The notes under the pieces are model-generated. The model searched no databases. It was not told where the DNA came from and saw only the letters and a list, made by a program, of their open reading frames with translations. Source: Mimachlamys varia (taxonomy: Eukaryota > Mollusca > Bivalvia > Pectinida > Pectinidae). Taken from it: a stretch of DNA of 64,000 nucleotides. Shown piece by piece: positions 892-63,868 of this stretch; the first letter of the stretch is position 1, and each line of letters begins with the position of its first letter. Where the stretch lies: assembly GCA_947623455.1 (NCBI GenBank), contig OX392530.1, positions 28,923,405 to 28,987,404 on the forward strand. Reading direction: 5' to 3'. Position numbers and translations under genes: made by a program.

Positions 892-1102
892 CAAAAACGT
901 GTTTAAATGGAGGATACTGTACCTGGTCGGGAAATACCACCTACTGCGCATGTACGGATCAGTACTACGGGGACACGTGTGAGCTAATGTGTAACACGAC
1001 AAAGTGCGCTGGTGGGCGGTGCATCATATACAACAGTGCTTCAACATGTCTTTGTCCCGGAGGTTATATCGAACCAATGTGCACTACTAGCTGTACCGAC
1101 AC
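892..1102 (+). CDS. Receptor exon 1 in window: two EGF-like repeats
   Basis: The acceptor TTTTTACAG precedes 892; the donor CAC|GTAAGT follows 1102. It enters in phase 1 and leaves in phase 2. It encodes [11 protein letters not shown]...CELMC, one complete EGF, then a second ending GGYIEPMC, then SCTDT, the start of a third EGF completed in the next exon 19 kb away. The join AC|G is confirmed because the next exon continues the EGF cysteine pattern. The last bases and the donor are the seed of the 15-kb array that follows. Confidence 0.9.
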
Positions 1103-4100
1103 GTAAGTCTTAATAGGAAGTGTACCGACACGTAAGTCTTAATAGGAAGTGTAACGACACGTTAATATCTGGATAACAATTTTCCCGACACGTAATTCTA
1201 AACGACAGCTGTCCCGACACTAAAATCTATGGAACAACTGTAAAGACTCGTAAGTTTAAATAAGAACTTTACCGACACGTGACACTGAAAGGTAACTGAA
1301 CCGACACGAAAATCTAGTAAACTATTTACCGTAATCAAAAACTAAGCAACAACTATACCGACACCTAGTCTATACAACAACTATACCGACACCTAGTCTA
1401 TACAACAACTATACCGACACCTTAGTCTATATAACAACTATACCGACACCTTAGTCTATACAACAACTATACTGACACCTTGTCTATATAACAACTATAC
1501 CGACACCTTAGTCTATACAACAACTATACTGACACCTTAGTCTATATAACAACTATACCGACACCTTAGTCTATACAACAACTATACCGACACCTTAGTC
1601 TATACAACAACTGTACTGACACCTTAGTCTATATAACAACTATACCGACACCTTAGTCTATATAACAACTATACCGACACCTTAGTCTATATAACAACTA
1701 TACCGACACCTTAGTCTATATAACAACTATACCGACACCTTAGTCTATATAACAACTATACCGACACCTTGTCTATACAACAACTATACCGACAACTTAG
1801 TCTATACAACAACTATACCGACAACTTGTCTATACAACAACTGTACTGACATCTTTGTCTATACAACAACTATACTGACACCTTAGTCTATACAACAACT
1901 ATACCGACAACTTGTCTATACAACAACTATACCGACACCTTAGTCTATATAACAACTATACCGACACCTTAGTCTATATAACAACTATACTAACACCTTA
2001 GTCTATACAACAACTATACTGACACCTTAGTCTATACAACAACTATACCGACAACTTGTCTATACAACAACTATACCGACACCTTAGTCTATACAACAAC
2101 TATACCGACACCTTAGTCTATACAACAACTATACCGACACCTTAGTCTATATAACAACTATACCGACACCTTAGTCTATATAACAACTATACCGACACCT
2201 TAGTCTATACAACAACTGTACTGACACCTTAGTCTATATAACAACTATACCGACACCTTAGTCTATACAACAACTGTACTGACACCTTAGTCTATATAAC
2301 AACTATATCGACACCTTAGTCTATATAACAACTATACCGACACCTTAGTCTATACAACAACTATACTGACACCTTAGTCTATACAACAACTATACTGACA
2401 TCTTAGTCTATACAACAACTATACTGACATCTTAGTCTATACAACAACTATACCGACATCTTAGTCTATACAACAACTATACTGACACCTTAGTCTATAC
2501 AACAACTATACTGACATCTTAGTCTATACAACAACTATACCGACATCTTAGTCTATATAACAACTATACTGACAACTTGTCTATACAACAACTATACCGA
2601 CACCTTAGTCTATATAACAACTATACTGACACCTTAGTCTATACAACAACTATACCGACACCTAGTCTATATAACAACTATACCGACACCTTAGTCTTTA
2701 TAACAACTATACCGACACCTTAGTCTATACAACAACTATACCGACACCTTAGTCTATACAACAACTATACCCACACCTTAGTCTATACAACAACTATACC
2801 GACACCTTAGTCTTTATAACAACTATACCGACACCTAGTCACTACAACTGTACCGACACCTTTAGTCTATACAACAACTATACCGACACCTTAGTCTATA
2901 CAACAACTATACTGACACCTTAGTTTATACAACAACTATACCGACACCTTAGTCTATTCAACAACTATACCGACATCTTAGTCTATACACCAACTATACC
3001 GACACCTTAGTCTATACAACAACTATACCGACAACTTGTCTATACAACAACTATACCGACACCTAGTCTATATAACAACTATACCGACAACTTGTCTATA
3101 TAACAACTATACCGACACCTTAGTCTATATAACACCTATACTGACACCTTAGTCTATACAACAACTATACCGACACCTTAGTCTATACAACAACTATACC
3201 GACACCTTAGTCTATATAACAACTATACTGACAACTTGTCTATATAACAACTATACTGACACCTTAGTCTATACAACAACTATACCGACACCTTAGTCTA
3301 TACAACAACTATACCGACACCTAGTCTATACAACAACTATACCGACACCTTAGTCTATACAGCAACTATACCGACACCTTAGTCTATACAACAACTATAC
3401 CGACACCTTAGTCTATACAACAACTATACCGACACCTTAGTCTATATAACAACTATACTGACACCTTAATCTATATAACAACTATACCGACACCTAGTCT
3501 ATACAACAACTATACCGACACCTTAGTCTATACAACAACTATACCGACACCTTAGTCTATATAACAACTATACCGACACCTTAGTCTATACAACAACTAT
3601 ACCGACACCTAGTCTATATAACAACTATACCGACAACTTGTCTATACAACAACTATACCGACACCTAGTCTATATAACAACTGTACTGACACCTTAGTCT
3701 ATACAACAACTATACCGACACCTTAGCTTATACAACAACTATACCGACAACTTGTCTATGTAACAACTATACCGACACCTTAGTCTATACAACAACTATA
3801 CCGACACCTTAGTCTATACAACAACTATACCGACACCTTAGTCTTTATAACAACTATACCGACACCTAGTCACTACAACTGTACCGACACCTTTAGTCTA
3901 TACAACAACTATACCGACACCTTAGTCTATACAACAACTATACCGACACCTTAGTCTATACAACAACTATACCGACACCTTAGTCTATATAACAACTATA
4001 CTGACACCTTAATCTATATAACAACTATACCGACACCTAGTCTATACAACAACTATACCGACACCTTAGTCTATACAACAACTATACCGACACCTTAGTC

Positions 4101-7100
4101 TATATAACAACTATACCGACACCTTAGTCTATACAACAACTATACCGACACCTAGTCTATATAACAACTATACCGACAACTTGTCTATACAACAACTATA
4201 CCGACACCTAGTCTATATAACAACTGTACTGACACCTTAGTCTATACAACAACTATACCGACACCTTAGCTTATACAACAACTATACCGACAACTTGTCT
4301 ATGTAACAACTATACCGACACCTTAGTCTATACAACAACTATACCGACACCTTAGTCTATACAACAACTATACCGACACCTTAGTCTATATAACAACTAT
4401 ACTGACACCTTAGTCTATACAACAACTATACCGACACCTAGTCTATATAACAACTATACTGACACCTTAGTCTATATAACAACTATATCGACACCTTAGT
4501 CTATATAACAACTATACTGACACCTTAGTCTATATAACAACTATACTGACACCTTAGTCTATACAACAACTATACCGACACCTAGTCTATATAACAACTA
4601 TACTGACACCTTAGTCTATATAACAACTATACCGACACCTTAGTCTATACAACAACTATACCGACACCTTAGTCTATATAACAACTATACCGACACCTTA
4701 GTCTATACAACAACTATACCGACACCTTAGTCTATACAACAACTATACCGACACCTTAGTCTATATAACAGCTATACTGACACCTTAGTCTATAAAACAA
4801 CTATACTGACACCTAGTCTATATAACAACTATACCGAAACCTAGTCTATATAACAACTATACTGACACCTTAGTCTATACAACAACTGTACCGACACCTA
4901 GTCTATACAACAACTGTACCGACACCTTAGTCTATATAACAACTGTACCGACACCTCAGTCTATACAACAACTGTACCGACACCTTAGTCTATACAACAA
5001 CTGTACCGACACCTTAGTCTATATAACAACTGTACCGACACATCAGTCTATATAACAACTGTACCGACACCTTAGTCTATACAACAACTATACCGACACC
5101 TAGTCTATACAACAACTATACCGACACCTTAGTCTATACAACAACTATACCGACACCTTAGTCTTTATAACAACTATACCGACACCTAGTCACTACAACT
5201 GTACCGACACCTTTAGTCTATACAACAACTATACCGACAACTAAGTCTATACAACAATTATACTGACACCTTAGTTTATACAACAACTATACCGACACCT
5301 TAGTCTATTCAACAACTATACCGACATCTTAGTCTATACACCAACTATACCGACACCTGAGTCTATACAACAACTATACCGACAACTTGTCTATACAACA
5401 ACTATACCGACACCTAGTCTATATAACAACTATACCGACAACTTGTCTATATAACAACTATACCGACACCTTAGTCTATACAACAACTATACCGACACCT
5501 TAGTCTATACAACAACTATACCGACACCTTAGTCTATATAACAACTATACCGACACCTTAGTCTATATAACAACTATACTGACAACTTGTCTATATAACA
5601 ACTATACTGACACCTTAGTCTATATAACAACTATACCGACACCTAGTCTATACAACAACTATACCGACACCTTAGTCTATACAACAACTATACCGACACC
5701 TAGTCTATACAACAACTATACCGACACCTTAGTCTATACAACAACTATACCTACACCTTAGTCTATACAACAACTATACCGACACCTTAGTCTATTCAAC
5801 AACTATACCGACATCTTAGTCTATACACCAACTATACCGACACCTGAGTCTATACAACAACTATACCGACAACTTGTCTATACAACAACTATACCGACAC
5901 CTAGTCTATATAACAACTATACCGACAACTTGTCTATATAACAACTATACCGACACCTTAGTCTATACAACAACTATACCGACACCTTAGTCTATATAAC
6001 AACTATACTGACAACTTGTCTATATAACAACTATACTGACACCTTAGTCTATATAACAACTATACCGACACCTAGTCTATACAACAACTATACCGACACC
6101 TTAGTCTATACAACAACTATACTGACACCTTAGTCTATATAACAACTATACTGACAACTTGTCTATATAACAACAATACCGACACCTTCGTCTATATAAC
6201 AACTATACCGACACCTAGTCTATACAACAACTATACCGACACCTTAGTCTATACAACAACTTTACCGACACCTTAGTCTATATAACAACTATACCGACAC
6301 CTTAGTCTATACAACAACTATACCGACACCTAGTTTATATAACAACTGTACTGACACCTTAGTCTATTCAACAACTATACCGACATCTTAGTCTATACAC
6401 CAACTATACCGACACCTTAGTCTATACAACAACTATACCGACAACTTGTCTATACAACAACTATACCGACACCTAGTCTATATAACAACTATACCGACAA
6501 CTTGTCTATACAACAACTATACCGACACCTAGTCTATATAACAACTATACCGACAACTTGTCTATATAACAACTATACCGACACCTTAGTCTATACAACA
6601 ACTATACCGACACCTTAGTCTATATAACAACTATACTGACAACTTGTCTATATAACAACTATACTGACACCTTAGTCTATATAACAACTATACCGACACC
6701 TAGTCTATACAACAACTATACCGACACCTTAGTCTATACCACAACTATACCGACACCTTAGTCTATACAACAACTATACCGACACCTTAGTCTATACAAC
6801 AACTATACCCACACCTTAGTCTATACAACAACTATACCGACACCTTAGTCTTTATAACAACTATACCGACACCTAGTCACTACAACTGTACCGACACCTT
6901 TAGTCTATACAACAACTATACCGACACCTTAGTCTATACAACAACTATACTGACACCTTAGTTTATACAACAACTATACCGACACCTTAGTCTATTCAAC
7001 AACTATACCGACATCTTAGTCTATACACCAACTATACCGACACCTTAGTCTATACAACAACTATACCGACAACTTGTCTATACAACAACTATACCGACAC

Positions 7101-10100
7101 CTAGTCTATATAACAACTATACCGACAACTTGTCTATATAACAACTATACCGACACCTTAGTCTATATAACACCTATACTGACACCTTAGTCTATACAAC
7201 AACTATACCGACACCTTAGTCTATACAACAACTATACCGACACCTTAGTCTATATAACAACTATACTGACAACTTGTCTATATAACAACTATACTGACAC
7301 CTTAGTCTATATAACAACTATACCGACACCTAGTCTATACAACAACTATACCGACACCTTAGTCTATACAACAACTATACCGACACCTAGTCTATACAAC
7401 AACTATACCGACACCTTAGTCTATACAGCAACTATACCGACACCTTAGTCTATACAACAACTATACCGACACCTTAGTCTATACAACAACTATACCGACA
7501 CCTTAGTCTATATAACAACTATACTGACACCTTAATCTATATAACAACTATACCGACACCTAGTCTATACAACAACTATACCGACACCTTAGTCTATACA
7601 ACAACTATACCGACACCTTAGTCTATATAACAACTATACCGACACCTTAGTCTATACAACAACTATACCGACACCTAGTCTATATAACAACTATACCGAC
7701 AACTTGTCTATACAACAACTATACCGACACCTAGTCTATATAACAACTGTACTGACACCTTAGTCTATACAACAACTATACCGACACCTTAGCTTATACA
7801 ACAACTATACCGACAACTTGTCTATGTAACAACTATACCGACACCTTAGTCTATACAACAACTATACCGACACCTTAGTCTATACAACAACTATACCGAC
7901 ACCTTAGTCTATATAACAACTATACTGACACCTTAGTCTATACAACAACTATACCGACACCTAGTCTATATAACAACTATACTGACACCTTAGTCTATAT
8001 AACAACTATATCGACACCTTAGTCTATATAACAACTATACTGACACCTTAGTCTATATAACAACTATACTGACACCTTAGTCTATACAACAACTATACCG
8101 ACACCTAGTCTATATAACAACTATACTGACACCTTAGTCTATATAACAACTATACCGACACCTTAGTCTATACAACAACTATACCGACACCTTAGTCTAT
8201 ATAACAACTATACCGACACCTTAGTCTATACAACAACTATACCGACACCTTAGTCTATACAACAACTATACCGACACCTTAGTCTATATAACAGCTATAC
8301 TGACACCTTAGTCTATAAAACAACTATACTGACACCTAGTCTATATAACAACTATACCGAAACCTAGTCTATATAACAACTATACTGACACCTTAGTCTA
8401 TACAACAACTGTACCGACACCTAGTCTATACAACAACTGTACCGACACCTTAGTCTATATAACAACTGTACCGACACCTCAGTCTATACAACAACTGTAC
8501 CGACACCTTAGTCTATACAACAACTGTACCGACACCTTAGTCTATATAACAACTGTACCGACACATCAGTCTATATAACAACTGTACCGACACCTTAGTC
8601 TATACAACAACTATACCGACACCTAGTCTATACAACAACTATACCGACACCTTAGTCTATACAACAACTATACCGACACCTTAGTCTTTATAACAACTAT
8701 ACCGACACCTAGTCACTACAACTGTACCGACACCTTTAGTCTATACAACAACTATACCGACACCTAAGTCTATACAACAATTATACTGACACCTTAGTTT
8801 ATACAACAACTATACCGACACCTTAGTCTATTCAACAACTATACCGACATCTTAGTCTATACACCAACTATACCGACACCTGAGTCTATACAACAACTAT
8901 ACCGACAACTTGTCTATACAACAACTATACCGACACCTAGTCTATATAACAACTATACCGACAACTTGTCTATATAACAACTATACCGACACCTTAGTCT
9001 ATACAACAACTATACCGACACCTTAGTCTATACAACAACTATACCGACACCTTAGTCTATATAACAACTATACCGACACCTTAGTCTATATAACAACTAT
9101 ACTGACAACTTGTCTATATAACAACTATACTGACACCTTAGTCTATATAACAACTATACCGACACCTAGTCTATACAACAACTATACCGACACCTTAGTC
9201 TATACAACAACTATACCGACACCTAGTCTATACAACAACTATACCGACACCTTAGTCTATACAACAACTATACCGACACCTTAGTCTATACAACAACTAT
9301 ACCGACACCTTAGTCTATTCAACAACTATACCGACATCTTAGTCTATACACCAACTATACCGACACCTGAGTCTATACAACAACTATACCGACAACTTGT
9401 CTATACAACAACTATACCGACACCTAGTCTATATAACAACTATACCGACAACTTGTCTATATAACAACTATACCGACACCTTAGTCTATACAACAACTAT
9501 ACCGACACCTTAGTCTATATAACAACTATACTGACAACTTGTCTATATAACAACTATACTGACACCTTAGTCTATATAACAACTATACCGACACCTAGTC
9601 TATACAACAACTATACCGACACCTTAGTCTATACAACAACTATACTGACACCTTAGTCTATATAACAACTATACTGACAACTTGTCTATATAACAACAAT
9701 ACCGACACCTTCGTCTATATAACAACTATACCGACACCTAGTCTATACAACAACTATACCGACACCTTAGTCTATACAACAACTTTACCGACACCTTAGT
9801 CTATATAACAACTATACCGACACCTTAGTCTATACAACAACTATACCGACACCTAGTTTATATAACAACTGTACTGACACCTTAGTCTATTCAACAACTA
9901 TACCGACATCTTAGTCTATACACCAACTATACCGACACCTTAGTCTATACAACAACTATACCGACAACTTGTCTATACAACAACTATACCGACACCTAGT
10001 CTATATAACAACTATACCGACAACTTGTCTATATAACAACTATACCGACACCTTAGTCTATATAACACCTATACTGACACCTTAGTCTATACAACAACTA

Positions 10101-13100
10101 TACCGACACCTTAGTCTATACAACAACTATACCGACACCTTAGTCTATATAACAACTATACTGACAACTTGTCTATATAACAACTATACTGACACCTTAG
10201 TCTATATAACAACTATACCGACACCTAGTCTATACAACAACTATACCGACACCTTAGTCTATACAACAACTATACCGACACCTAGTCTATACAACAACTA
10301 TACCGACACCTTAGTCTATACAACAACTATACCGACACCTTAGTCTATACAACAACTATACCGACACCTTAGTCTATACAACAACTATACCGACACCTTA
10401 GTCTATATAACAACTATACTGACACCTTAGTCTATATAACAACTATACCGACACCTAGTCTATACAACAACTATACCGACACCTTAGTCTATACAACAAC
10501 TATACCGACACCTTAGTCTATATAACAACTATACCGACACCTTAGTCTATACAACAACTATACCGACACCTAGTCTATATAACAACTATACCGACAACTT
10601 GTCTATACAACAACTATACCGACACCTAGTCTATATAACAACTGTACTGACACCTTAGTCTATACAACAACTATACCGACACCTTAGCTTATACAACAAC
10701 TATACCGACAACTTGTCTATGTAACAACTATACCGACACCTTAGTCTATACAACAACTATACCGACACCTTAGTCTATACAACAACTATACCGACACCTT
10801 AGTCTATATAACAACTATACTGACACCTTAGTCTATACAACAACTATACCGACACCTAGTCTATATAACAACTATACTGACACCTTAGTCTATATAACAA
10901 CTATATCGACACCTTAGTCTATATAACAACTATACTGACACCTTAGTCTATATAACAACTATACCGACACCTTAGTCTATATAACAACTATACCGACACC
11001 TTAGTCTATACAACAACTATACCGACACCTTAGTCTATACAACAACTATACCGACACCTTAGTCTATATAACAACTATACTGACACCTTAGTCTATACAA
11101 CAACTATACCGAAACCTAGTCTATATAACAACTATACTGACACCTTAGTCTATACAACAACTGTACCGACACCTAGTCTATACAACAACTGTACCGACAC
11201 CTTAGTCTATATAACAACTGTACCGACACCTCAGTCTATACAACAACTGTACCGACACCTTAGTCTATACAACAACTGTACCGACACCTTAGTCTATATA
11301 ACAACTGTACCGACACATCAGTCTATACAACAACTGTACCGACACCTTAGTCTATACAACAACTATACCGACACCTAGTCTATACAACAACTATACCGAC
11401 ACCTTAGTCTATACAACAACTATACCGACACCTTAGTCTTTATAACAACTATACCGACACCTAGTCACAACAACTGTACCGACACCTTTAGTCTATACAA
11501 CAACTATACCGACACCTTAGTCTATACAACAACTATACTGACACCTTAGTTTATACAACAACTATACCGACACCTTAGTCTATTCAACAACTATACCGAC
11601 ATCTTAGTCTATACACCAACTATACCGACACCTGAGTCTGTACAACAACTATACCGACAACTTGTCTATACAACAACTATACCGACACCTAGTCTATATA
11701 ACAACTATACCGACAACTTGTCTATATAACAACTATACCGACACCTTAGTCTATATAACACCTATACTGACACCTTAGTCTATACAACAACTATACCGAC
11801 ACCTTAGTCTATACAACAACTATACCGACACCTTAGTCTATATAACAACTATACTGACAACTTGTCTATATAACAACTATACTGACACCTTAGTCTATAT
11901 AACAACTATACCGACACCTAGTCTATACAACAACTATACCGACACCTTAGTCTATACAACAACTATACCGACACCTTAGTCTATATAACAACTATACTGA
12001 CACCTTAGTCTATATAACACCTATACCGACACCTAGTCTTTACAACAACTATACCGACACCTTAGTCTATACAACAACTATACTGATACCTTAGTCTATA
12101 TAACAACTATACTGACAACTTGTCTATATAACAACAATACCGACACCTTCGTCTATATAACAACTATACCGACACCTAGTCTATACAACAACTATACCGA
12201 CACCTTAGTCTATACAACAACTATACCGACACCTTAGTCTATATAACAACTATACCGACACCTAGTCTATACAACAACTATACCGACACCTTAGTCTATA
12301 CAACAACTATACCGACACCTTAGTCTATATAACAACTATACCGACACCTTAGTCTATACAACAACTATACCGACACCTAGTCTATATAACAACTGTACTG
12401 ACACCTTAGTCTATACAACAACTATACCGACACCTTAGTCTATACAACAACTATACCGACAACTTGTCTATGTAATAACTATACCGACACCTTAGTCTAT
12501 ACAACAACTATACTGACACCTTAGTCTATACAACAACTATACCGACACCTTAGTCTATATAACAACTATACTGAAACCTTAGTCTATACAACAACTATAC
12601 CGACACCTAGTCTATATAACAACTATACTGACACCTTAGTCTATATAACAACTATATCGACACCTTAGTCTATATAACAACTATACTAACACCTTAGTCT
12701 ATATAACAACTATACCGACACCTTAATCTATATAACAACTATACCGACACCTTAGTCTATACAACAACTATACCGACACCTTAGTCTATACAACAACTAT
12801 ACCGACACCTTAGTCTATATAACAGCTATACTGACACCTTAGTCTATAAAACAACTATACTGACACCTAGTCTATATAACAACTATACCGAAACCTAGTC
12901 TATATAACAACTATACTGACACCTTAGTCTATACAACAACTGTACCGACACCTAGTCTATACAACAACTGTACCGACACCTTAGTCTATATAACAACTGT
13001 ACCGACACCTCAGTCTATACAACAACTGTACCGACACCTTAGTCTATACAACAACTGTACCGACACCTTAGTCTATATAACAACTGTACCGACACCTCAG

Positions 13101-16100
13101 TCTATACAACAACTGTACCGACACCTTAGTCTATACAACAACTATACCGACACCTCAGTCTATACAACAACTGTACCGACACCTTAGTCTATACAACAAC
13201 TGTACCGACACCTTAGTCTATACAACAACTATACCGACACCTTAGTCTATATAACAACTATAAGGACACCTTAGTCTATATAACAACTATACTGACACCT
13301 TAGTCTATAAAACAACTATACTGACACCTTAGTCTATATAACAACTATACCGAAACCTAGTCTATATAACAACTATACTGACACCTTAGTCTATACAACA
13401 ACTGTACCGACACCTAGTCTATACAACAACTGTACCGACACCTTAGTCGATATAACAACTGTACCGACACCTCAGTCTATACAACAACTGTACCGACACC
13501 TTAGTCTATACAACAACTATACCGACACCTTAGTCTATATAACAACTATACCGACAACTTGTCTGTACAACTATACCGACACCTCAGTCTATACAACAAC
13601 TGTACCGACACCTTAGTCTATACAACAACTGTACCGACACCTTAGTCTATACAACAACTATACCGACACCTTAGTCTATATAACAACTATACCGACACCT
13701 TAGTCTATACAACAACTATACCGACACCTAGTCTATATAACAACTATACCAACACCTTAGTCTATATAACAACTATACCGACACCTTAGTCTATATAACA
13801 ACTATACCGACACCTTAGTCTATATAACAACTATACTGACACCTTAGTCTATATAACAACTATACTGACACCTTAGTCTATACAACAACTGTACCGACAC
13901 CTAGTCTATACAACAACTATACCAACACCTTAGTCTATATAACAACTATACCGACACCTAGTCTATATAACAACTATACCAACACCTTAGTCTATATAAC
14001 AACTATACCGACACCTTAGTCTATGTAACAACTATACCGACACCTTAGTCTATATAACAACTATACCGACAACTTGTCTATATAACAACTATACTGACAC
14101 CTTAGTCTATACAACAACTATACCGACACCTTAGTCTATATAACAACTATACCGACACCTTAGTCTATATAACAACTATACTGACACCTTAGTCTATACA
14201 ACAACTATACCGACACCTAGATCAATAATAACTATACCGACACCTTAGTCTATATAACAACTATACTGACACCTTAGTCTATATAACAACTATACCGACA
14301 CCTCAGTCTATATAACAACTATACTGACACCTTAGTCTATACAACAACTATACCTACACCTTAGTCTATATAACAACTATACTGACACCTTAGTCTATAT
14401 AACAACTATACTGACACCTTAGTCTATACAACAACTATACCGACACCTTAGTCTATATAACAACTATACTGACACCTTAGTCTATATAACAACTATACCG
14501 ACACCTTAGTCTATACAACAACTATACCGACACCTAGTCTATACAACAACTGTACCGACACCTTAGTCTATATAACAACTGTACCGACACTTTAGTCTAT
14601 ATAACAACTGTACCGACACTTTAGTCTATACAACAACTGTACCGACACCTTAGTCTATATAACAACTGTACCGACACTTTAGTCTATATAACAACTATAC
14701 CGACACCTTAGTCTATACAACAACTATACCGACACCTTAGTCTATACAACAACTGTACCGACACCTTAGTCTATACAACAACTATACCGACACCTAGTCT
14801 ATATAACAACTATACCGACACCTTAGTCTATACAACAACTATACCGACACCTTAGTTTATACAACAACTATACCGACACCTAGTCTATACAACAATTATA
14901 TCGACACCTTAGTCTATACAACAACTGTACCGACACCTTAGTCTATACAACAACTATACCGACACCTTAGTCTATATAACAACTATACCGACACCTTAGT
15001 CTATACAACAACTATACTGGCACCTTAGTCTATACAACAACTATACCGACACCTTAATCTATATTACAACTATACTGACACCTTAGTCTATACAACAACT
15101 ATACCGACACCTAGTCTATATAACAACTATACCGACACCTTAGTATATACAACAACTATACCGACACCTTAGTTTATACAACAACTATACCGACACATAG
15201 TGTATAGAACAACTGTACTGAAATCTAGTCCAAACAACAACTATACCGACTCCTTAGTCTATACAACAACTATATCGACACCTTAGTTTATACAACAACT
15301 ATATCGACAACTTAGTCTATACAACACCTATATCGCCAACTTAGTCTATACAACAACTATACCTACACCTTAGTCTATATTACAATTATATCGACACCTT
15401 AGTCTATATAACAACTGTACTGACACCTTAGTCTATACAACAACTATAACTACACCTTAGTCTATACAACAACTATATCGACACCTTAGTCTTTACAACA
15501 ACTATACCGACACCTAGTCTATACAACAACTATACTGACACCTAGTCTATACAACAACTATACCGACACCTTAGTCTATACAACAACTGTACCGACACCT
15601 TAGTCTATACAACAACTATACCGACACCTAGTGTATAGAACAACTGTACCGACACCTTAGTCTATACAACAACTATATCGACACCTTAGTCTATATAACA
15701 ACTATACTGACATCTTAGTCTATACAACAACTATACCGACACCTAGTGTATAGAACAACTGTACCGACACCTTAGTCTATACAACAACTATATCGACACC
15801 TTAGTCTATACAACAACTATACCGACACCTTAGTCTATACAACAACTGTACCGACACCTTAGTCTATACAACAACTATACTGACACCTTAGTCTATACAA
15901 CAACTATACCGACACCTAGTGTATAGAACAACTGTACCGACACCTTAGTCTATACAACAACTATACCGACACCTTAGTCTATACAACAACTGTACCGACA
16001 CCTTAGTCTATACAACAACTATACTGACACATTAGTCTATACAACAACTATACCGACACCTAGTGTATAGAACAACTGTACCGACACCTTAGTCTATACA

Positions 16101-49143: not shown

Positions 49144-49344
49144 TCAAACACTGCACTGTCATTCTCTCGTGTTTAGTTTAATTTGTGTTGTTTGTTCTGT
49201 CGCTGGCAATTTGTGTGGTGTACCGTGAGTAAAATTTTTGTATCTCACTACCAAAGTGGGGCGTGATTCATTTGATTCGTGCGAAACAGAACCTGTTTCA
49301 CTACAGACAGAAGTTAGCATTAACTATATCGTATACTACAGTGC

Positions 49345-49430
49345 GTACATTCAGTTTAAATACAGTAAGTACATTCAGTTTTAACACAGTGAGTACATTC
49401 AGTTTTAACACAGTAAGTACATTAAGTTCC
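49345..49430. repeat. Four copies of a 24- to 25-bp repeat
   Basis: Copies of CAGTAAGTACATTCAGTTTT with an AACA spacer. The unit again carries a donor-like CAGTAAGTAC, but no exon is recognised beside it. Confidence 0.85.
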
Positions 49431-54130: not shown

Positions 54131-54751
54131 AGACTTAAACGTGCTGCTACACATGTATTTGCCTGTATGTCATACCACCTCAAACCATCCCAAAAGCTTG
54201 CTATCTTTCAGTATGAACATATGTATAAGTACCAGTAATGCACATATAAACGCTCCCTTTAAATGGCACAGTGAATCTGTTTTGTTAAGAGTACGGGCCG
54301 GGCATGGTACCCCAATTTAGTATGTGTTATCGCTAAAGACGGGGGTATCACTTGGTGACATCAGCACCAAACACAAAATAGAGACACACCCCGCTGAAAA
54401 TTGAACCTAAGGAAGTATGGAGCTTTTTGGTATTGTTGAGGTATAATTGGTTAACCAAGGCCGATTTTTAAAATAAGTGAATTGCATAAAAGACACAAGA
54501 TTAGACGTTCTGCATGTTGGTCAAACATTTACTGTGATTTTTTTTTTATTTCCAAAGGGGTAAGACAAGGTTCTCAAAAGTCTGTGATGCCATTTTGTGA
54601 TTTATTGAATGTCTCAAAGTTAAATGGGCAATAATTCCGGACAAAATAGGTAAATGAAGAATCACAAAATCCACCTCAATCCCTTAAACCCAAAATAGTT
54701 AGGAACAGTTCAATGTTCCATGCATCCTCATCCTTAGATGCATAACTCACA

Positions 54752-54925
54752 AATGGCAGCACCGGTTGTATACTCCCCAGAGAGTTGAGAACTATATTGG
54801 CTGGTTGCTAAGGCCTATAACCACGGATAATAATTTGTGAACCACTTTGCGGCGACCTTTAGGTTGTGATAAAAGGGTATATAAGAACCTTAAATTATCA
54901 TTATCATCATTATTATTAATAACCA
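54752..54925 (+). mobile_element. 5'-truncated SINE copy
   Basis: Shares AATGGCAGCACCGGTTGTAT, GGCTGGTTGCTAAGGCCTAT, AACCACGGATAATAATTTGT and GGTATATAAGAACC with the SINE at 18961-19290, and ends in an ATTATT tail. The tRNA-like head is missing. Confidence 0.85.
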
Positions 54926-54964
54926 TTATTCTGAACCTGTTGCGGACCTCGCTGATGTAGGGCT

Positions 54965-55008
54965 ATAGCATAAACCCCCTCAACTTCATTGAGGTGAGCT
55001 AAAAATAG
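54965..55008. mobile_element. Hairpin-CTAA terminus (degenerate copy)
   Basis: CTCAACTTCATTGAG hairpin followed by GTGAGCTAAAAAT, preceded by GCATAA. It has the same layout as the 3' end of the element at 59357-59950 (GCATAA, hairpin, GTGAGCTAAAAAT), so probably the same family. Confidence 0.5.
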
Positions 55009-55088
55009 GTAGACTTGCACTAAATCAAAACCTGAACTACATCTGAATTATCATCAAACAACTTCATATCACATTACAGTTCAATGGG

Positions 55089-55094
55089 TTTATT
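55089..55094 (-). terminator. Candidate GNL2 poly(A) signal
   Basis: AATAAA on the minus strand 333 bases after the GNL2 stop codon, followed by TG-rich sequence (ATGTGATATGAAGTTGTTTG). Other AATAAA variants are near, so this is only a candidate. Confidence 0.4.
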
Positions 55095-55426
55095 TGTGAA
55101 ATACTAAGTGAGTAGCAACAAGGTTTTGACAGAATGACTGAGTGACGGAATCGGGAGCATGAAAAGATGGAATGATTGCCAAGGGCAACACTTTGCCTAG
55201 GCCATTTCATGTTGGGGACAACAATTTTTTGATAATTTAAAAGATTTGATACTTCATTGATTAAAACCACTTCCATATATCACAGAACATGCAAATATCA
55301 CGATCAGTGAAGAACAAAAACAGTCAATTTCACAATTAAAATTTAATATTTAATAACAATTGTGATGTTAAGTCTGGATATTCCTGTCAATGCTAGCGTA
55401 CTGGTGGTGATTACATCCTGATCCTG

Positions 55427-55519
55427 TTATCGCCTTCGGTTTTTGTTTTTCACATTTGTTTGTGTATAAAACTGAGAACCTATCTTCTTGGTTTTGGATT
55501 CCCTCTCTAATCGACGTCT
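55427..55519 (-). CDS. GNL2: GNL2 last exon: basic C-terminus
   Basis: Acceptor GTGTTACAG (minus strand), phase 0, 30 codons plus TAA (stop at 55427-55429). It encodes [14 protein letters not shown] and [12 protein letters not shown], the conserved C-terminal signature of GNL2. It joins directly to KLSSKQ at the end of the previous exon, restoring the family motif (S/T)KxRRR. Confidence 0.93.
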   Translation of the reverse strand, partial: RRRLERESKTKKIGSQFYTQTNVKNKNRRR

Positions 55520-58500
55520 CTGTAACACAAAATAATATCATGGTAGTGAGTTTTATTTGACATGGCAAGTGAAAAGTGACCTTCCTCAACACCAGTAATT
55601 TTGAATGGTGTACATAATCAACCACTCCACCTCCCTTACCCAGGTCATCTTTAGAAACCTACATGACACTGCACTTAACGGTTGTGTCCCGTGGCCTGAA
55701 CAGACGGAAAATCTTTACAACCAATCAGAATGGTCATTTTTTCGAGGCACTTGGTTGGATCATTTTACCTTGGTACGTTTCTGTAATCATGACACCGATG
55801 TCAATGTTTGGTAGGACTTATTGTCATTTATGTTGTTCAAACATAACCATACACAACCCATATGTTTTCTTGGCAGGCGATGCCACCGCCATGTTGGTTT
55901 GTATTGTGTAGCTACAAAAGAGATATCTTGGTTGAATGTAGCCTATATAGATGAAAGAAAGAAAATGTGTTGGCTACTATTTTATTACGAATCAAGATTT
56001 TCCATCTCTTCTTGCCCACGGAACACAAACGTAAGTGCAGTGTTATGTGGGTTTCCGACGATGTACCCAGGTAAATGTTTCAACAAGATTTTTGATGTTG
56101 ATACCAACCCTGAATAGCATCTCAATGACACTAACCAGATCAAGGTATTCATTTCTAACACTTGTCATAGTATGAAATTAAATTCACAGTCTTCAGCTTA
56201 GATCATGATCAACTACGGTATACCCGAATTTCCTTGGGAACTTTTGGTCTTGTCAACCTACAAAACTAAAACTGTTACCTATGGAATAACACTATATTAC
56301 CTCTTCTAGAACTTTTACCTATGGGCTAACACTAATACACCCTACTAGAACTGTTATCTAAGGGCTTACACTAATACACCCTACTAGAACTGTTATCTAT
56401 GGGCTTACACTAATACACCCTACTAGAACTGTTATCTAAGGGCTTACACTAATACACCCTACTAGAACTGTTATCTAAGGGCTTACACTAATACACCCTA
56501 CTAGAACTGTTATCTATGGGCTTACACTAATACACCCTACTAGAACTGTTACATATGGGCTAAAACACTAATACCCCTACTAGAACTGTTACATATGGGA
56601 TAACACTAATACCCCTACTAGAACTGTTACACATGGGATAACACTAATACACCCTACTAGAACTGTTACACATGGGATAACACTAATACACCCTACTAGA
56701 ACTGTTACATATGGGATAACACTAATACACCCTACTAGAACTGTTACATATGGGATAACACTAATACACCCTACTAGAACTGTTACATATGGGATAACAC
56801 TAATACACCCTACTAGAACTGTTACATATGGGATAACACTAATACACCCTACTAGAACTGTTACATATGGGATAACACTAATACACCCTACTAGAACTGT
56901 TACATATGGGATAACACTAATACACCCTACTAGAACTGTTACATATGGGATAACACTAATACACCCTACTAGAACTGTTACATATGCGCTTACACTTATA
57001 CATCCTACAAGAACTGTTATCTATGGGCTAACACTTATACCCCTAGTAGAACTGTTACCTATGGGATAACACTAATACCCCTTCATTCAATCTGCTTGTT
57101 GCCTGATGCCTTTGCTGTATGAAGTTAAATAACCAAGTGAAAACATATATATATTGGTCATGAACAAGTTCCAACAGATTTGATAACTTGTGATTTGTTT
57201 TTGTGATTCCTCTTGAACATTTTAAAAGTTAAGGCCCAGACAGCATATTTCTGAAAACATTGCAGAATTTTTAGTTTAATCAGAATATATCATTGATTAT
57301 TTGACCTAGGGTCGATTTTGTAATGCCATCATATACATGCATACAACGTTTAAGCAAATAGAGATAAGTGTGGGGGACTGTTGGCTTTTTTCTTTTTCAC
57401 CTTGAAGTTTACTATGACTTAATACCTACATCATTCCATGGCATATGTGTTTATAAAATACCTACTGCTTCTGAGATAATTAGCCATTGCATTAATGAAC
57501 TGCAAAATCCAAAACATTTCTCATGTTGAATTTATCTCTCAAGTCAACCTTCGAACTGTTTGCAGTAGTTGTAGGGGGCACATGAAATTTAAGAATGATC
57601 CTTCCAGTATGTCACAAGAAAGAATGATAACAAGAACTGTTTAGGGAAGGATGATGGTGGGCTAAAATAAGAGATATCTAGAACAAACTACCCCAGTCTA
57701 TGTTATTACTGGTGACATACCTGTTTACTACTAAGTTTCTGTTTCTTTGGTGAGTTCTCTTCCTCATCGATTTCTGTGATGACAAACTTGCCACTTCTGC
57801 TCTGCTTAACCATCTCTGACTTCCTTTTGCCAGTTTGTGTGGGGGACTTTGTTTTATCTTCATCAAATGTAACTTTTTTTGCGCCGTTCTTTCCTGGTGA
57901 CTGAGAACCACTCTGTCCAATGTCCCTATCCTTATCACAGTAGTCAGAACTGTTCACACCTGTGTCCAGTACCTCACACTCTTCATCATTCACAAAATCC
58001 TTCACACGTTTTTTCATTTCATTGCTGTGTTTTACACTGCTTTCCCTACACTTTTCCTGTTCAGTCATTAGACCAGTGGTACTCTCAGAGTCATCCTTTT
58101 TATTCTTTCCATCTTCCTCTCTGTTCTTTCCATCTGCCTCCCCCTCCTCCTCCTCTTCTTCCTCAGACTCAGAAACCTCAGAATCATCCCCCTCCAATGG
58201 GACCTGTTCTAATTTTTTTATGTCTTCAGCCATGAAAGTCGGAGCCACATTAATTTTACTTAGATCCTGTCGTACTTTAGGTATCACTCCCTTTTTCACT
58301 TTGGCCTCCACAACCGTGTCAGTTGCTTCTGTGTCCTCTGATAAAGTAGTCTCCCCTTGCTCTTCTCGTACCTTCGAAGCTTCGTCAGCACTTTGCCCTT
58401 GCTCAACAGTGATTCCAGTTTTTTGTTCTGTACTGCTGTTGCTGCTCTCACCCTTAAAAATAGAATTGTTTAATGTGGCGTAGAAATTATAATTGAAATA

Positions 58501-61500
58501 CCTTGTATCCTATCTACCATGTAAATATATATTTACAGTCTACACTGACATTCACTCAATAACCATTGTTCCACTGACTATCATTATCACCTCATAACTG
58601 TAGTAAAACATGTGCAAAATTTCTATGACGTCGACAACAATACAAGTGGGCGGAGCTATGCAAATCCTACAGTTTGAAACACAATTGTGTGACGTCACCA
58701 ACAATAAACGTGGGCGGAGCTTGCAAATTTCATGCTGTTTCATTCATTGAACCATTCCCACGTTTATTAGGTTTGAAATGAAATCTGTGTCCTAAGATTG
58801 GACTATGATGAACAAAATAGTTACGAACATTTTACAGAAAGACACAGTAAATAAAAGGATAAACTTTCTATTTTGTTTAGGTTATCGGGGATAACTACAA
58901 TGGAAAACGGGTAAATTGTAATAAATGATTGAATTTACCCGTTTTCCATTGTAGTTATCCCCCGATAACCTAAACAAATAAAAAGTTAATCCTTAAACAC
59001 ACGCAAGTGGTTTTACTCCATATCGTTTCCCATGATTCTTCATTAGTCAAATTGCCAGGGTTGGACATTACACTACGTTTAGGTATTAAACTATTTACAG
59101 ATAGATGGGATGATTTGGGAATTCAGAGACAACGTTACACTGACACGTAAAAAGTGAAAACAAATACATAATTAGAGACAAACAAGAGGATCACAGGCCT
59201 TAGGGTCACCTCGGAGATACTGTAATACAGGACATGAAGATGAAACTTAATTTCGACTACAGATCAATGTAAAAGATATGATAATATGCTGATTCCTACC
59301 AAATTGGAATGAAATTCATTTTTTATCAAGCTAAATAAAAACAAGGGGCCTGCATCGCTCACCTGGAATTAATCTCTGATTTGTAACCCTAAAGTCACCA
59401 AAATGGCCCCTTGGGTGTCAGAGTCACCATTTATGCAAAATCTGTTCCCCTTCCCCCAAGGATGTTTCTGACCAAATGTAGGCAAATCCATTCATAACTT
59501 TTTGACAAGAAGAGATTTAAAGGAATTACCTCTATTTTCCCTATTGGGCCCTGTGCCTCTGGGCCCTTAGGGGTCAGAGTCACCATTTATGCAAAATCTG
59601 TTCCCCTTCCCCCAAGGATGTTTCTGACTAAATTTGGTCAAAATCTAATCAGAACTTTTTGACATGAAGAGATTTAAAGGAATTACCTCTATTTTCCCTA
59701 TTGGGCCCCTCCCCTCTGGCTCTTTAGGGGTCAGAGTCACCATTAATGCAAAATCTGTTCCCCTTTGCCAAGGATGTTTCTGACCAAATTTGGTTAAAAT
59801 CCAATCAGGACTTCTTGACTAGTAGCGATTTGAAGCAAATGTTGACAGACGACGGACGGACGACGGCCGCCGGACACCGGACGACGGCCGCCGGACACCG
59901 GACGCTGCGCCATGGCATAAGCTCACCGGACCTTCGGTCCAGGTGAGCTAAAAATGAACAATTTTAACATGATGAAAGGAACACCTCTGCTCTTCAGGCA
60001 AAAACATGACTTACAAAAAGGATTGACATAGTTTTTCCTTTTAGTGACCTTAAATATGGCACTATTTATCCAGAACCATCATTAATTTATACGCCTACCT
60101 CCTCACTACCAGGCGGCCGTACAAAGTAGGGAATCTTGCCTCTCTGCCAGTCGTTCAGGACCATCTTAGCCATGGTGCTGAAGTCTGGTTCTCCACCCTG
60201 AAAGGAACACATAAACCTCATATATATGTCATATTGACAGTTACATCTTAATAATAAGCAATATCAAAATTAAGGACTTTTACTTTGGTTACCTATTAAA
60301 CAGCTTGTTCTTACTAGACTTTATCTTAGCTACCTCTCACACACTTTTTCAAACTAGACATTATCTTAGTAACCTCTCACACACTCATACTAGTTCTTAC
60401 TAGACTTTATCTTAGTAACCTCTCTCACACTAGTTCTAACTAGACTTTATCTTAGTAACCTCTCTCACACTTATACTTGCTCTAACTAGACTTTATCTTA
60501 GTAACCTCTCTCACACTAGTTCTAACTAGACTTTATCTTAGTAACCTCTCTCTCACACTAGTTCTAACTAGACTTTATCTTAGTAACCTCTCTCACACTT
60601 GTTCTAACTAGACTTTATCTTAGTAACCTCTCTCACACTTGTTCTAACTAGACTTTATCTTAGTAACCTCTCTCTCACACTAGTTCTAACTAGACTTTAT
60701 CTTAGTAACCTCTCTCTCACACTTGTTCTAACTAGACTTAATCTTAGTAACCTCTCTCACACTTATACTTGTTCTAACTAGACTTTATCTTAGTTACCTC
60801 TTTCACACTTGTTCTAACTAGACTTTATCTTAGTAACCTCTCACACTTGTTCTAACTAGACTTAATCTTAGTAACCACTTTCACACTTATACTTGTTCTA
60901 ACTAGACTTTATCTTAGTAACCTCTCACACTTGTTCTAACTAGACTTTATCGTAGTAACCACTTTCACACTTATACTTGTTCTAACTAGACTTTATCTTA
61001 GTAACCTCTCTTTCACACTCATACTTGTTCTAACTAGACTTTATCTTAGTAACCTCTCTCACACTTATACTTGTTCTAGCTAGACTTAATCTTAGTTACC
61101 TCTTTCACACTTGTTCTAACTAGACTTTATCGTAGTAACCACTTTCACACTTATACTTGTTCTAACTAGACTTTATCTTAGTAACCTCTCTCTCACACTA
61201 GTTCTAACTAGACTTTATCTTAGTAACCTCTCTCACACTAGTTCTAACTAGACTTTATCTTAGTAACCTCTCTCACACTTGTTCTAACTAGACTTTATCT
61301 TAGTAACTTCTTTCACACTTATACTTGTTCTAACTAGACTTAATCTTAGTTACCTCTCTAACACACATATTCTCACTGAACTTTATCTTAGTAATCTCTC
61401 ACACTTATACTTGTTCTAACTAGACTTTATCTTAGTAATCTCTCACACTTATACTTGTTCTAACTAGACTTTATCTTAGTAATCTCTCACACTTATACTT

Positions 61501-63868
61501 GTTCTAACTAGACTTTATCTTAGTAATCTCTCACACTTATACTTGTTCTAACTAGACTTTATCTTAGTAACCTCTCTCACACTTGTTCTAACTAGACTTT
61601 ATCTTAGTAACCTCTCACACTCATACTAGTTCTAACTAGACTTTATCTTAGAACCTCTTGCACACTTGTTCTAATTAGACTTAATCTTAGTAACCTCTCT
61701 CACACTTATACTTGTTCTTACTAGACTTTATCTTAGTAACCTCTCTCTCACACTAGTTCTAACTAGACTTTATCTTAGTAACCTCTCTCACACTAGTTCT
61801 AACTAGACTTTATCTTAGTAACCTCTCTCACACTTATACTTGTTCTTACTAGACTTTATCTTAGTAACCTCTCTCTCACACTAGTTCTAACTAGACTTTA
61901 TCTTAGTAACCTCTCTCACACTAGTTCTAACTAGACTTTATCTTAGTAACCTCTCTCACACTTATACTTGTTCTAACTAGACTTTATCTTAGTAACCTCT
62001 CTCACACTTGTTCTAACTAGACTTTATCTTAGTAACTTCTTTCACACTTATACTTGTTCTAACTAGACTTAATCTTAGTTACCTCTCTAACACACATATT
62101 CTCACTGAACTTTATCTTAGTAATCTCTCACACTTATACTTGTTCTAACTAGACTTTATCTTAGTAATCTCTCACACTTATACTTGTTCTAACTAGACTT
62201 TATCTTAGTAATCTCTCACACTTATACTTGTTCTAACTAGACTTTATCTTAGTAATCTCTCACACTTATACTTGTTCTAACTAGACTTTATCTTAGAACC
62301 TCTCACACTTGTTCTAACTAGACTTTATCTTAGTAACCTCTCACACTCATACTAGTTCTAACTAGACTTTATCTTAGAACCTCTTGCACACTTGTTCTAA
62401 TTAGACTTTATCTTACAATGTAGTTACCTTGAGTAGTTTTCCACACTTTTTGGCTAGTTGCTCTAGAAAGTTCTCAGCGCTGGTCCATTCCTGTATCTTA
62501 TAGGTCTGTTTTATGTAATCTTTCTTCACACGTTTTAACAAGTCTGCAATGTAGTCCTCTGGGGTCTTCACCATTTCTACACGTACCTGTACAGTGCATA
62601 ATGATACCTAGAGCTATTACGCTACTCAAAGACTGAGTGAAGGTATACAAAAACGATATATAGAGTACTAGTTTGCTTTTCTTTAAACATATTTCTCTAA
62701 ACAATTCTGGGTTTTGTATTATAGAAAATCAAAATATTAAACCACACATTGCTGGAGCTGATGCTTCCACAGTATATTACAGCCATGTCAACCTGTTATT
62801 AAGAATGACTCATTATACAGGACACTTGTCTATAAAGGACAGATTCATCAGACATACACAATGCAATTTACTATATATTAACCAACCTCTGTATAAAGGA
62901 CACCTGACTATAAAGGGCATTTTTGCTCAGTTCCATGGGTGTCTTTTATATACAGATTTGGCTTTATTATGGAAGCAAATTTAAGAGACAATAGCATGGC
63001 TTATTTTCTTCTATGAAATGCCTACATTTGCAACCTAAAATGACCATGTTATTAAAACCTTGGTTCTATTGATCCAAGAAGGAAAATAAACATGAATAGA
63101 CAGTATATAGTTGGCCAACATGACTATAAATACAACAGCTAGGAGCATTTATCTGTGTACACGATTCACTGCCACAGCGACTTACAATTCCTTTGAGGAC
63201 AAACTCAGTTTTGGAATCTGCTGAAGGATACACAACACCTGGACAGTCGACCAGGTAAATCCTCTTCATAAGCGTCACATACTGCCACACCTGGAAAACA
63301 GAACATTGATTAGGTGTAAATTATAGTGAAAAAGATTTCCTCTGTAAAAAGTTAATCCATGCACATGTGTTTTTTAATTTGTCCCACTTGGAAATCCCCT
63401 CTCCTAGAAATTTTAGATAACCCCACTTAACTGATTTCTGAATCAAACTTCTATTTCCTTTGTACTGCTGCATATCAGAAATTAGGTGCAACCGGCTAAA
63501 TTTACTTTGTTGCTCCTACTATAGTTGTAACAGACAAATTTACCTTTGTTTCGCCTGCTATAGGTGTAACAGACAAATTTACCTTTGTTTCGCCTGCTAT
63601 AGGTGTAACAGACTAAAACCTTTGTTTCTCCTGCTATAGCTGTAACAGACTAAATTTACCTTTGTTTCACCTGCTATAGGTGTAACAGAATAAATTTACC
63701 TTTATTTCTCCTGCTATATGTGTAACAGACAAATTTTACCTTTGTTTCTCCTGCTATAGGTGCAACATTACAGACTTTCTTGGCCCGGAGGGTGTTGATG
63801 ATGGAGCTCTTTCCCACATTGGGGTAGCCTATAAATCCAACACTGATCTGTTTCTTGTCTGAGTGTAG
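55427..63868 (-). CDS. GNL2: GNL2/NOG2 nucleolar GTP-binding protein, C-terminal 438 residues (6 exons, 5'-partial)
   Basis: GNL2 (yeast Nog2) is a circularly permuted GTPase that binds pre-60S ribosomal particles in the nucleolus and nucleus and checks rRNA assembly before export. Six exons, all phase 0, join without error. Residues are numbered from 63868: G1/P-loop GYPNVGKS 14-21, APIAGETK 36-43, G3 DCPG 58-61, the conserved domain after the GTPase ([54 protein letters not shown]) to 160, then a low-complexity acidic region with a Glu run, and a basic C-terminus [21 protein letters not shown]4 (NKxD) and the N-terminus precede the window edge, as expected for permutation. The disordered C-terminal region looks shorter than in vertebrate GNL2. 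Introns are full of minisatellites. Confidence 0.96.
55650..56255. other. GNL2 last-intron sequence, no gene seen
   Basis: Three overlapping + strand frames of 69-98 codons occur (55605-56117), but they have no recognisable domain, sit inside an intron, and show no splice or promoter support. Confidence 0.5.
56256..57095. repeat. 39-bp minisatellite in the last GNL2 intron
   Basis: About 21 copies of CTACTAGAACTGTTACATAT plus GGGATAACACTAATACACC, very uniform in the centre (56660-56990) and diverged at both edges. It lies some 630 bases from the GNL2 donor at 57720 and does not convincingly contain that exon's end. Confidence 0.95.
57096..57720. other. Intronic sequence, no gene seen
   Basis: Between the minisatellite and the GNL2 exon at 57721; the donor CAG|GTATGT (minus strand) is at its right end. 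Confidence 0.55.
57721..58452 (-). CDS. GNL2: GNL2 exon: acidic low-complexity region
   Basis: 244 codons, phase 0 at both ends. Acceptor ATTTTTAAG and donor AACAG|GTATGT on the minus strand. It starts [18 protein letters not shown], holds the family core [20 protein letters not shown], a Glu run ([12 protein letters not shown]), then mixed K/E/S sequence ending [10 protein letters not shown]. The reading frame continues upstream of 58311 to the acceptor, so no internal start should be placed there. Plus-strand frames (57879-58483) are shadows of the Glu/Ser/Lys codons. Confidence 0.93.
58620..58735. repeat. Two diverged copies of a CRE/GC-box/octamer-like segment
   Basis: TGACGTCGACAACAATACAA, then GTGGGCGGAGCTATGCAAAT, is repeated about 65 bases later as TGACGTCACCAACAATAAAC, then GTGGGCGGAGCTTGCAAAT. 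Each copy carries TGACGTC(A), GGGCGG and an ATGCAAAT-like octamer. Intronic in GNL2. Confidence 0.75.
58862..58986. other. Long hairpin in a GNL2 intron
   Basis: Arms 58862-58917 and 58932-58986 are reverse complements with few mismatches (GGTTATCGGGGATAACTACA against its complement) around a 14-base loop. Non-coding, MITE-like or a structured intronic RNA. Confidence 0.85.
59357..59950 (+). mobile_element. Non-autonomous element with terminal hairpin (Helitron-like?) and 157-bp internal repeats
   Basis: Starts near TCGCTCACCTGG and ends with the hairpin GCTCACCGGACCTTCGGTCC|AGGTGAGC (59921-59948) followed by TAA. The first GCTCACCTGG (59357-59366) is also the complement of the last CCAGGTGAGC (59939-59948). 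Inside are three copies of a 157-bp repeat (GTCAGAGTCACCATTTATGC at 59417, 59573 and, with a change, 59730) and a GC-rich duplication GACGGCCGCCGGACACCGGA. A hairpin near a CTAA end and a TC start suit a non-autonomous Helitron, but the flanking-T rule is not met at the right side. A similar terminus is at 54965. Confidence 0.6.
60099..60197 (-). CDS. GNL2: GNL2 exon: GGEPDF...FVRPPGSEE
   Basis: 33 codons, phase 0. Acceptor TTCCTTTCAG, donor GAGGAG|GTAGGC (minus strand). It encodes [18 protein letters not shown] and [15 protein letters not shown], the most conserved block after the GTPase domain in NOG2 proteins. Confidence 0.95.
60298..62412 (-). repeat. Array E: 2.1-kb GNL2 intron minisatellite, about 40-bp unit
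   Basis: About 50 copies. On + the unit is CTAACTAGACTTTATCTTAG, then TAACCTCTCTCACACTTGTT, with longer variants holding TTATACTTG. Read on the GNL2 strand the unit contains GAGGTTACTAAGATAAAGTC, which aligns with the exon junction CAAG|GTAACT...AAGATAAAGTCTA directly beside it at 62405-62432 after a seven-base difference. A block repeats at 729 bp (61371 and 62100). Confidence 0.93.
62428..62586 (-). CDS. GNL2: GNL2 exon: [17 protein letters not shown]...KCGKLLK
   Basis: 53 codons, phase 0. Acceptor CACTGTACAG, donor CTCAAG|GTAACT (minus strand). It covers the helical region after G3 ([38 protein letters not shown]). The donor is the likely ancestor of array E. Confidence 0.95.
63186..63290 (-). 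CDS. GNL2: GNL2 exon: G3 motif DCPG
   Basis: 35 codons, phase 0. Acceptor TGTTTTCCAG, donor GAATT|GTAAGT. It encodes [20 protein letters not shown] and [19 protein letters not shown] is the G3 (DxxG) box of the permuted GTPase. Confidence 0.96.
63497..63762 (-). repeat. Array D: about 39-bp minisatellite copying the end of a GNL2 exon and its donor
   Basis: About seven copies including the real exon end. On the GNL2 strand each is CACCTATAGCAGGAGAAACA AAG (coding APIAGETK in the true exon) followed by GTAAATTTGTCTGTTA. The genuine junction is the copy nearest the exon (63740); the copies lie wholly in the intron and keep a donor-like AAAGGTAAA with small changes (one lacks it). Confidence 0.95.
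63740..63868 (-). CDS. GNL2: GNL2 exon: P-loop (G1) and GETK
   Basis: 43 codons, phase 0. Acceptor TTCTTATCAG, donor ACAAAG|GTAAAA. It encodes [20 protein letters not shown], then [20 protein letters not shown] and ETK. The P-loop is intact and the donor seeds array D. The frame running past 63740 into the repeat is intron. Confidence 0.96.

Follow-up and report, generated by a model that had tools for sequence, protein, structure and literature searches.

Copies of exon ends and their 5' splice sites form minisatellites in introns of the scallop Mimachlamys varia

Introduction

Minisatellites that copy the boundary between an exon and its intron have been described in amphioxus as 'mirage' minisatellites, in Adh3, the globin genes BflGb6 and BflGb9, TnC and PGBD5 (PMC3087553, PMC3902484). 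These papers report that both 5' and 3' boundaries are affected, that splicing is regular and that the arrays show length and somatic instability; units measure from 10 to about 160 bp, splice signals are found in many copies, and copies are homogenised within clusters. For the globins, PMC3087553 also presents a model in which new introns arise from mirages. Here we analyse a 64-kb window (the whole stretch of DNA under study) of a chromosome of the scallop Mimachlamys varia, in which minisatellites in the introns of a Notch-like receptor gene (gene A) and of GNL2 begin with the end of an exon and its 5' splice site, or donor.

As in the amphioxus mirages, the scallop unit spans an exon/intron boundary (in four arrays of the window, two in a neighbouring part of GNL2 and one at a myosin locus), and the splice signal is retained in many but not all copies: the donor GT is present in 99, 95 and 100% of the copies of arrays 2, 3 and 4, and in 1% of those of array 1. 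The scallop arrays differ in affecting donors only, among the junctions tested, in reaching about 520 copies over 15 kb, and in their mollusc host. They are of the same kind as the amphioxus mirages; what is new here is apparently the host, the size and the donor bias. Within the terms searched, we found no mirage-type report for any mollusc in the open-access literature, and the reports found concern amphioxus only, so that these arrays extend mirages to a mollusc.

Two further systems are related. A minisatellite in human IFI6 (6-16) offers multiple splice donors (Turri 1995, as cited in PMC4526556), and the scallop units likewise present repeated donors beside an exon; two downstream IFI6 units are reported to serve as donors in alternative transcripts, whereas use of later copies in the scallop would in most cases disrupt the reading frame. 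In intron gain through tandem duplication of AGGT-containing sequence, discussed in PMC3087553, splice-site-like sequence is also copied in tandem, but the scallop copies lie inside the existing following intron, and no new intron inside a duplicated exon was seen in the donor arrays of the window or of GNL2. By a hand count, AG|GT (the bar marks the exon/intron boundary) stands at 3 of the 7 seeding donors against 12 of 20 other donors (P 0.66), which does not support the AGGT-type duplication that an earlier, sequence-only reading of this DNA had suggested.

Results

Four arrays of the window begin with an exon end and its donor

The window (G000:C4:28923405-28987404, from an assembly of 975 Mb in 71 contigs) contains the following host genes:

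892..46951, + strand: gene A, a Notch-like receptor carrying LNR and EGF repeats, of which the window holds 13 exons (spliced frame, Pfam, scallop orthologs)
55427..63868, − strand: the last six exons of GNL2, nucleolar GTP-binding protein 2, with more exons outside the window (homology, open frame)

Spliced reading frames are open in both genes. That of gene A extends over 883 amino acids with Pfam matches to LNR and EGF, and its scallop orthologs (P0121-P0123) carry names such as fibropellin-1-like or notch-homolog-like. The GNL2 protein is closest to that of Mizuhopecten yessoensis (84%), followed by Pecten maximus (73%) and Ylistrum balloti (68%), and its coding sequence is unbroken from Met when the window is joined with the neighbouring stretches.

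We delimited arrays with Tandem Repeats Finder (TRF) and compared copy-by-copy unit tables with the exon/donor junction. Four arrays were clear, in introns 1, 8 and 9 of gene A (window count) and in one GNL2 intron:

1092..1102, + strand: founder of array 1, the last 11 coding bases of exon 892-1102, donor CAC|GTAAGT (spliced frame, unit table, orthologs)
1092..16178, + strand: array 1, 29-bp unit, about 517-526 copies (TRF, unit table, donor test)
27075..32172, + strand: array 2, 35-bp unit, 10 coding bases (27075-27084), donor ACA|GTAAGT, 146 copies (TRF, unit table, donor test)
33600..42736, + strand: array 3, 42- then 46-bp unit, 28 coding bases (33600-33627), donor AAG|GTAACT, about 200 copies (TRF, unit table, donor test)
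63483..63767, − strand: array 4, 40-bp unit (27 exonic and 13 intronic bases), 7 copies (TRF, human GNL2 alignment, donor test)

The units are copies of an exon end plus its donor, located in the following intron. In the unit tables, the first copies of arrays 1 to 4 hold 11, 10, 28 and 27 coding bases, in agreement with the 10 to 30 claimed by the sequence-only reading, followed by the true donor. That these arrays each start with an exon end and its own donor, as the same reading stated, is confirmed by the unit tables, the open frames and the ortholog-verified junctions.

The unit of array 1 is TGTACCGACAC|GTAAGTCTTAATAGGAAG. TRF divides this array into 1092-1162 and 1347-16174, with decayed copies in the stretch between; its first two copies are identical to the junction, decayed copies come next, and a homogenised form without the donor GT follows. 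Array 2 repeats TGTACCGACA|GTAAGTATAGTGG..., and the word TGTACCGACA is common to arrays 1 and 2 because both exons end in Cys-Thr-Asp. Array 3 repeats its 28 exonic bases plus GTAACTGTTATACA, with a likeness to the junction of 96% in the first 21 copies and about 80% later. The coding bases of array 4 (63740-63766) end in GETK before the donor AAG|GTAAAA; its distal partial copy carries the G of the exon (GTTGCACC), as expected if the exon is the founder, while most inner copies have A. Growth by blocks shows inside arrays 1-3, where the same 60-mers are met again some 0.5-6 kb apart. Translation carried on beyond the first donor would run into a stop 2, 72, 693 and 64 bases further on in arrays 1 to 4, respectively.

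The proposed exon ends proved to be true junctions. In protein alignments with three scallops and a 2.9-kb contig, there are no gaps near the junctions of gene A exons 1, 8 and 9, which seed arrays 1-3; gaps are found at or near the ends of exons 2, 6, 10 and 12, those of exons 10 and 12 being at the junction itself in Pecten maximus. Human GNL2 aligns without gaps across the first four window exons of GNL2, and therefore the donors beside arrays 4 and 5 (the latter is described below) are certain. In the alignment with yeast GNL2 a single residue is gapped, at a distance from the seeding junctions. With regard to regular splicing, as reported for the amphioxus mirages, the orthologous scallop proteins show the expected junctions.

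Arrays start at donors and not at acceptors among the junctions tested

For each junction we aligned 30 exonic and 15 intronic bases to the adjoining intron and compared the score with shuffles. This was done for 17 introns of the window, leaving out the gene A intron that starts upstream of it. Four of the 17 donors beat every shuffle, compared with 0 of 17 acceptors, a contrast that by itself reaches only P 0.06. All 12 intronic arrays of the window lie at least 92 bases from an acceptor, and 7 of them neither span a donor nor resemble a donor junction. Under random placement of these 12 arrays, 0.36 donor-spanning ones are expected, and the probability of four or more is 2.3e-4.

The eight GNL2 introns upstream of the window gave two further positive donors, while none of their eight acceptors was positive:

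Donor at window coordinate 72577, − strand: array after the exon ending KWFG, three copies including the exon, 71-bp unit (junction test)
Donor at 69457, − strand: array after the exon ending GELYK, 15-17 copies including the exon, 55-bp unit of 49 exonic bases plus GTAAGA (junction test)

The 71-bp unit consists of 66-68 exonic and 3-5 intronic bases, two bases, AG, being ambiguous, and its distal copy ends in GTTTG|GTAAGGCC, probably the old intron start. The intronic share of the first copy is minimal in both arrays, a bare GTAAG or GTAAGA. Random placement gives P 0.066 for these two of eight arrays taken separately and, when they are pooled with those of the window, 6 observed against 0.80 expected (P 6e-5).

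Six myosin-head loci were also picked by hidden Markov model rank. One of them (L038) yielded no donor candidate, and L034 and L039 each offered a pair of donor candidates, all tested with negative outcome but only one per locus entering the count; at the junctions of the matched exons, none of the 5 donors and none of the 6 acceptor windows was positive. A seventh donor array was found at myosin locus L037, where an exon ending ...ILASLLHLGNIKYN meets the donor ATG|GTAAGG and is followed by about two copies of a 93-bp unit, with an alignment score of 54 against a shuffle maximum of 24. We kept it out of the donor counts because it was examined only after TRF had shown an array there. Pooled in this way, 6 of 30 donors and 0 of 31 acceptors were positive (one-sided Fisher test, P 0.011); this supersedes a count that included L037 (7/31 donors, P 0.005).

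Units in random stretches are enriched in the donor motif

An annotation-free test was run on 22 random stretches of 10 kb (L012-L033), in which about 23% of the bases lie within tandem arrays. Of 77 arrays with a period of 10 or more, 42 had TRF units of 15-120 bp in at least 2.5 copies and entered the motif test. The 5' and 3' splice-site matrices held generic values, not fitted to the Mimachlamys varia genome, and thresholds were the scores reached by 2, 5, 10 or 20% of length-matched single-copy segments. At the 5% threshold, 8 of the 42 units contained a strong 5' splice site where 2.1 were expected, a number that 0 of 200 control sets reached; the counts were 14 against 4.2 at 10%, and 5 against 0.84 at 2%. 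The acceptor matrix gave no excess in these 42 units at the 10, 5 and 2% thresholds (5 observed with 4.4 expected, 2 with 2.1 and 0 with 0.9). When the threshold was loosest (20%), it was also raised, with 15 of 42 against 8.4 (P 0.005), and the donor gave 15 against 8.4. Column-permuted donor matrices matched the donor count in 0 of 100 cases (0 of 60 in a separate run). The donor excess corresponds to 14% of the units (region-bootstrap interval 3-27%). One stretch, L012, supplies six of the 42 units, five of them with a donor score of at least 6.5, and the enrichment stands without this heavily weighing region (8/36 against 2.9).

Regarding individual stretches, L012 (749-1324 and 8135-10000) and L020 (9129-9365, − strand) contain arrays that, lying next to open frames, resemble donor arrays. 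The frames had no Pfam matches beyond zinc-finger ones below threshold, or none at all, for which reason the arrays are not counted as proven; comparison of two Pfam-less frames with PDB was negative, and a motif search of L020 for a following Sec14-like exon (the family being a tentative assignment) did not find it. As separate observations, the whole of L017 (1-9996) is a 31-bp array of 322 copies, and L021 has 7.9 kb (2089-10000) of another 31-bp unit, unlike that of L017.

Discussion

In the genome of Mimachlamys varia, donors are struck by minisatellites more than acceptors, random intron positions and equally strong non-splice motifs, and the same holds elsewhere in the genome than in the window. 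We consider that a viability filter acting together with an anchored seed has about an even chance of explaining these arrays as a whole. Short tandem duplications would arise widely in a minisatellite-rich genome. One that spans a donor would survive when its first copy retains a complete donor, and would be tolerated because the first donor goes on being used and the copies behind it are no more than intron; a duplication that covers an acceptor or its upstream signals would tend to disturb splicing and be removed. Later growth would be ordinary minisatellite turnover, block duplications included, and the exon copy, held by protein selection, would stay in place as a seed next to which new blocks can form. 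In all seven clear arrays the donor is intact in the first copy, which is what selection would leave, since without a functional first donor the duplication would do harm. The stops met beyond the first donor in arrays 1-4 and the distance of at least 92 bases between the arrays of the window and any acceptor are also in favour of such a filter. Young blocks lie on the exon side in array 1, where two identical copies precede decayed ones, and in array 3, where about 21 exon-like copies precede an older form.

Several points weigh against this account. Array 2 has no young block on the exon side, and its first copy differs from the others in the intronic part. Use of the first donor is inferred from orthologous proteins. 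PMC3087553 describes acceptor-side mirages in amphioxus, with units of 150-160 bp, and one array of L012 (6994-7954, 46-bp unit) has a last decayed copy ending in GACAG (7988) ahead of a coding-like frame; it may be an acceptor-side mirage if GACAG is the acceptor, another possible acceptor being at 8042. The claim that arrays never grow from the acceptor side thus holds for the 31 acceptors tested and does not hold in general. Likewise, the donor-to-acceptor contrast is found when the window, its neighbours and the myosin loci are taken together, but outside the window alone it amounts to 2 of 13 donors against 0 of 14 acceptors (P 0.22), and because of this weak count the contrast depends on the window together with the annotation-free test. 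Finally, the filter explains an excess of donors over acceptors but not over the inner intron, so the pooled placement result is left unexplained and a second factor is needed, which could be that arrays with a protein-anchored seed persist longer or that donors are genuine mutational hotspots. That donors exceed random intron positions suggests some influence besides the viability filter.

If that influence were a hotspot, polymerase pausing, U1-bound nascent RNA or transcription-replication collision would lead to template-switch tandem duplications at transcribed 5' splice sites. This would fit the comparison of splice sites in a 94-kb region, where, at a score of at least 7, 6 of 22 real donors lie in arrays as against 3 of 134 non-splice motifs (P 2.6e-4); splice context, or something tied to it, therefore matters. 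It would also fit the enrichment of random arrays in the donor but not the acceptor motif at strict thresholds, and the range of array sizes, from two copies (L037) to hundreds, by which array births look recurrent. However, a largely similar pattern is expected from selection against acceptor-side duplications and from a longer persistence of anchored arrays. The R-loops proposed by the sequence-only reading find no support either: in the seven clear arrays the GC skew of the coding strand varies (-0.57, +0.12, -0.01, +0.15, +0.03, +0.18 and +0.12), with no common G-richness, and this composition without an R-loop signature also counts against a hotspot. Nor does the polarity of the arrays with transcription, which had been taken as evidence of mechanism, tell us anything about it, because an array that contains an exon end can lengthen only on the intron side. 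We hold a donor hotspot to be rather unlikely. The overall interpretation of the earlier reading is partly supported.

We put forward only as a tentative possibility, short of an even chance, that minisatellites are born throughout the genome at active 5' splice sites, that duplications prefer transcribed donors, and that an appreciable share of minisatellites derives from junctions and has lengthened introns by kilobases. If donors seed minisatellites throughout the genome, intron growth, decoy splice sites and the birth of repeats would be linked, and the origin of minisatellites would become countable, the exon copy being a fossil that marks the founder and the direction of growth. With arrays that range in one genome from two copies up to about 15 kb, birth and decay can be followed by direct comparison of their stages. 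The scallop arrays also bear on the model of introns from mirages set out for the amphioxus globins in PMC3087553.

One could argue that GTAAGT-like words are unstable in any role and that donors merely contain them. A 24-bp array at 49338-49428, about 2.4 kb past the stop of gene A and with no known exon, has a unit with the donor-like ACAGTAAGT, and some random arrays with no proven exon, such as those in L018 and L022, also carry donor motifs. Against this, the strong non-splice sites of the 94-kb region lie in arrays only 3 of 134 times, and we judge motif-driven instability improbable.

It would be more improbable still that the arrays are adaptive, their copies serving as additional U1 sites which make splicing more reliable or prevent premature polyadenylation within long introns. 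The retention of GT in 95-100% of the copies of arrays 2, 3 and 4 could be read in this way; the GT columns, however, are just modestly above the array means, and the longest array, array 1, has lost its donors, which disfavours a functional U1 array.

Chance is a remote explanation. In a minisatellite-rich genome some arrays will overlap donors, the window was picked for its arrays, and the reader could have selected those cases. The placement probabilities for the window and for the pooled introns nonetheless speak against it, as do the control sets of the random stretches, and the excess beyond chance placement that had been noted from the sequence recurs in the upstream part of GNL2, at myosin locus L037 and in the random stretches. 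The reverse direction, in which older arrays supplied donors or exon ends, is hardly credible, for although arrays 1 and 2 share a short exonic word, their common Cys-Thr-Asp exon end accounts for it, and the exon ends are conserved as protein (GNL2 has GETK in human and yeast as well, and the EGF-type ends that seed arrays recur in other scallops).

Other arrays and repeats

Two other arrays of the window lie near donors:

60304..62415, − strand: array 5, its start 12 bases downstream of the true donor at 62428; likeness to the exon end no better than chance (P 0.10-0.11)
26063..26403, + strand: candidate 33-bp array (26109-26403) with decayed resemblance back to donor CCA|GTAAGT at 26063 (similarity tests)

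Array 5 (given as 60298-62412 in the earlier reading, which thought it probably junction-born) is unproven as a donor array: its resemblance to the exon end is that expected by chance, and another donor grafted in scored higher. The array near 26063, which the earlier reading had overlooked, is the likelier additional donor array, with suggestive values of P 0.002 when anchored, 0.025 for the junction alone and 0.022 in a separate test. The arrays at 24776-25196 and 56265-57082 were tested for a donor relation and none was found (P 0.61 and 0.08).

Repeats of other types were also observed. At 397-645 there is a dispersed repeat with an inverted part; its main match has 39 scored copies elsewhere in the genome at 76-84% identity, and the inverted part has further genomic matches. 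Intron 1 of gene A has, at 18350-18680, an open fragment that resembles a decayed retroelement protein by reading of its frames. The GNL2 introns contain a stretch like a dispersed element (59404-59905), in which 2.8 copies of a 156-bp unit lead into a CGGACG-rich tail, and, at window coordinates 73530-75981 (L010/L011), 147-bp units with AAGATGGCGGC. On another contig (G000:C10, about 8.0-8.95 Mb), kinesin-motor exons occur with equal scores in four to five places over about 1 Mb, as if the gene had been multiplied there.

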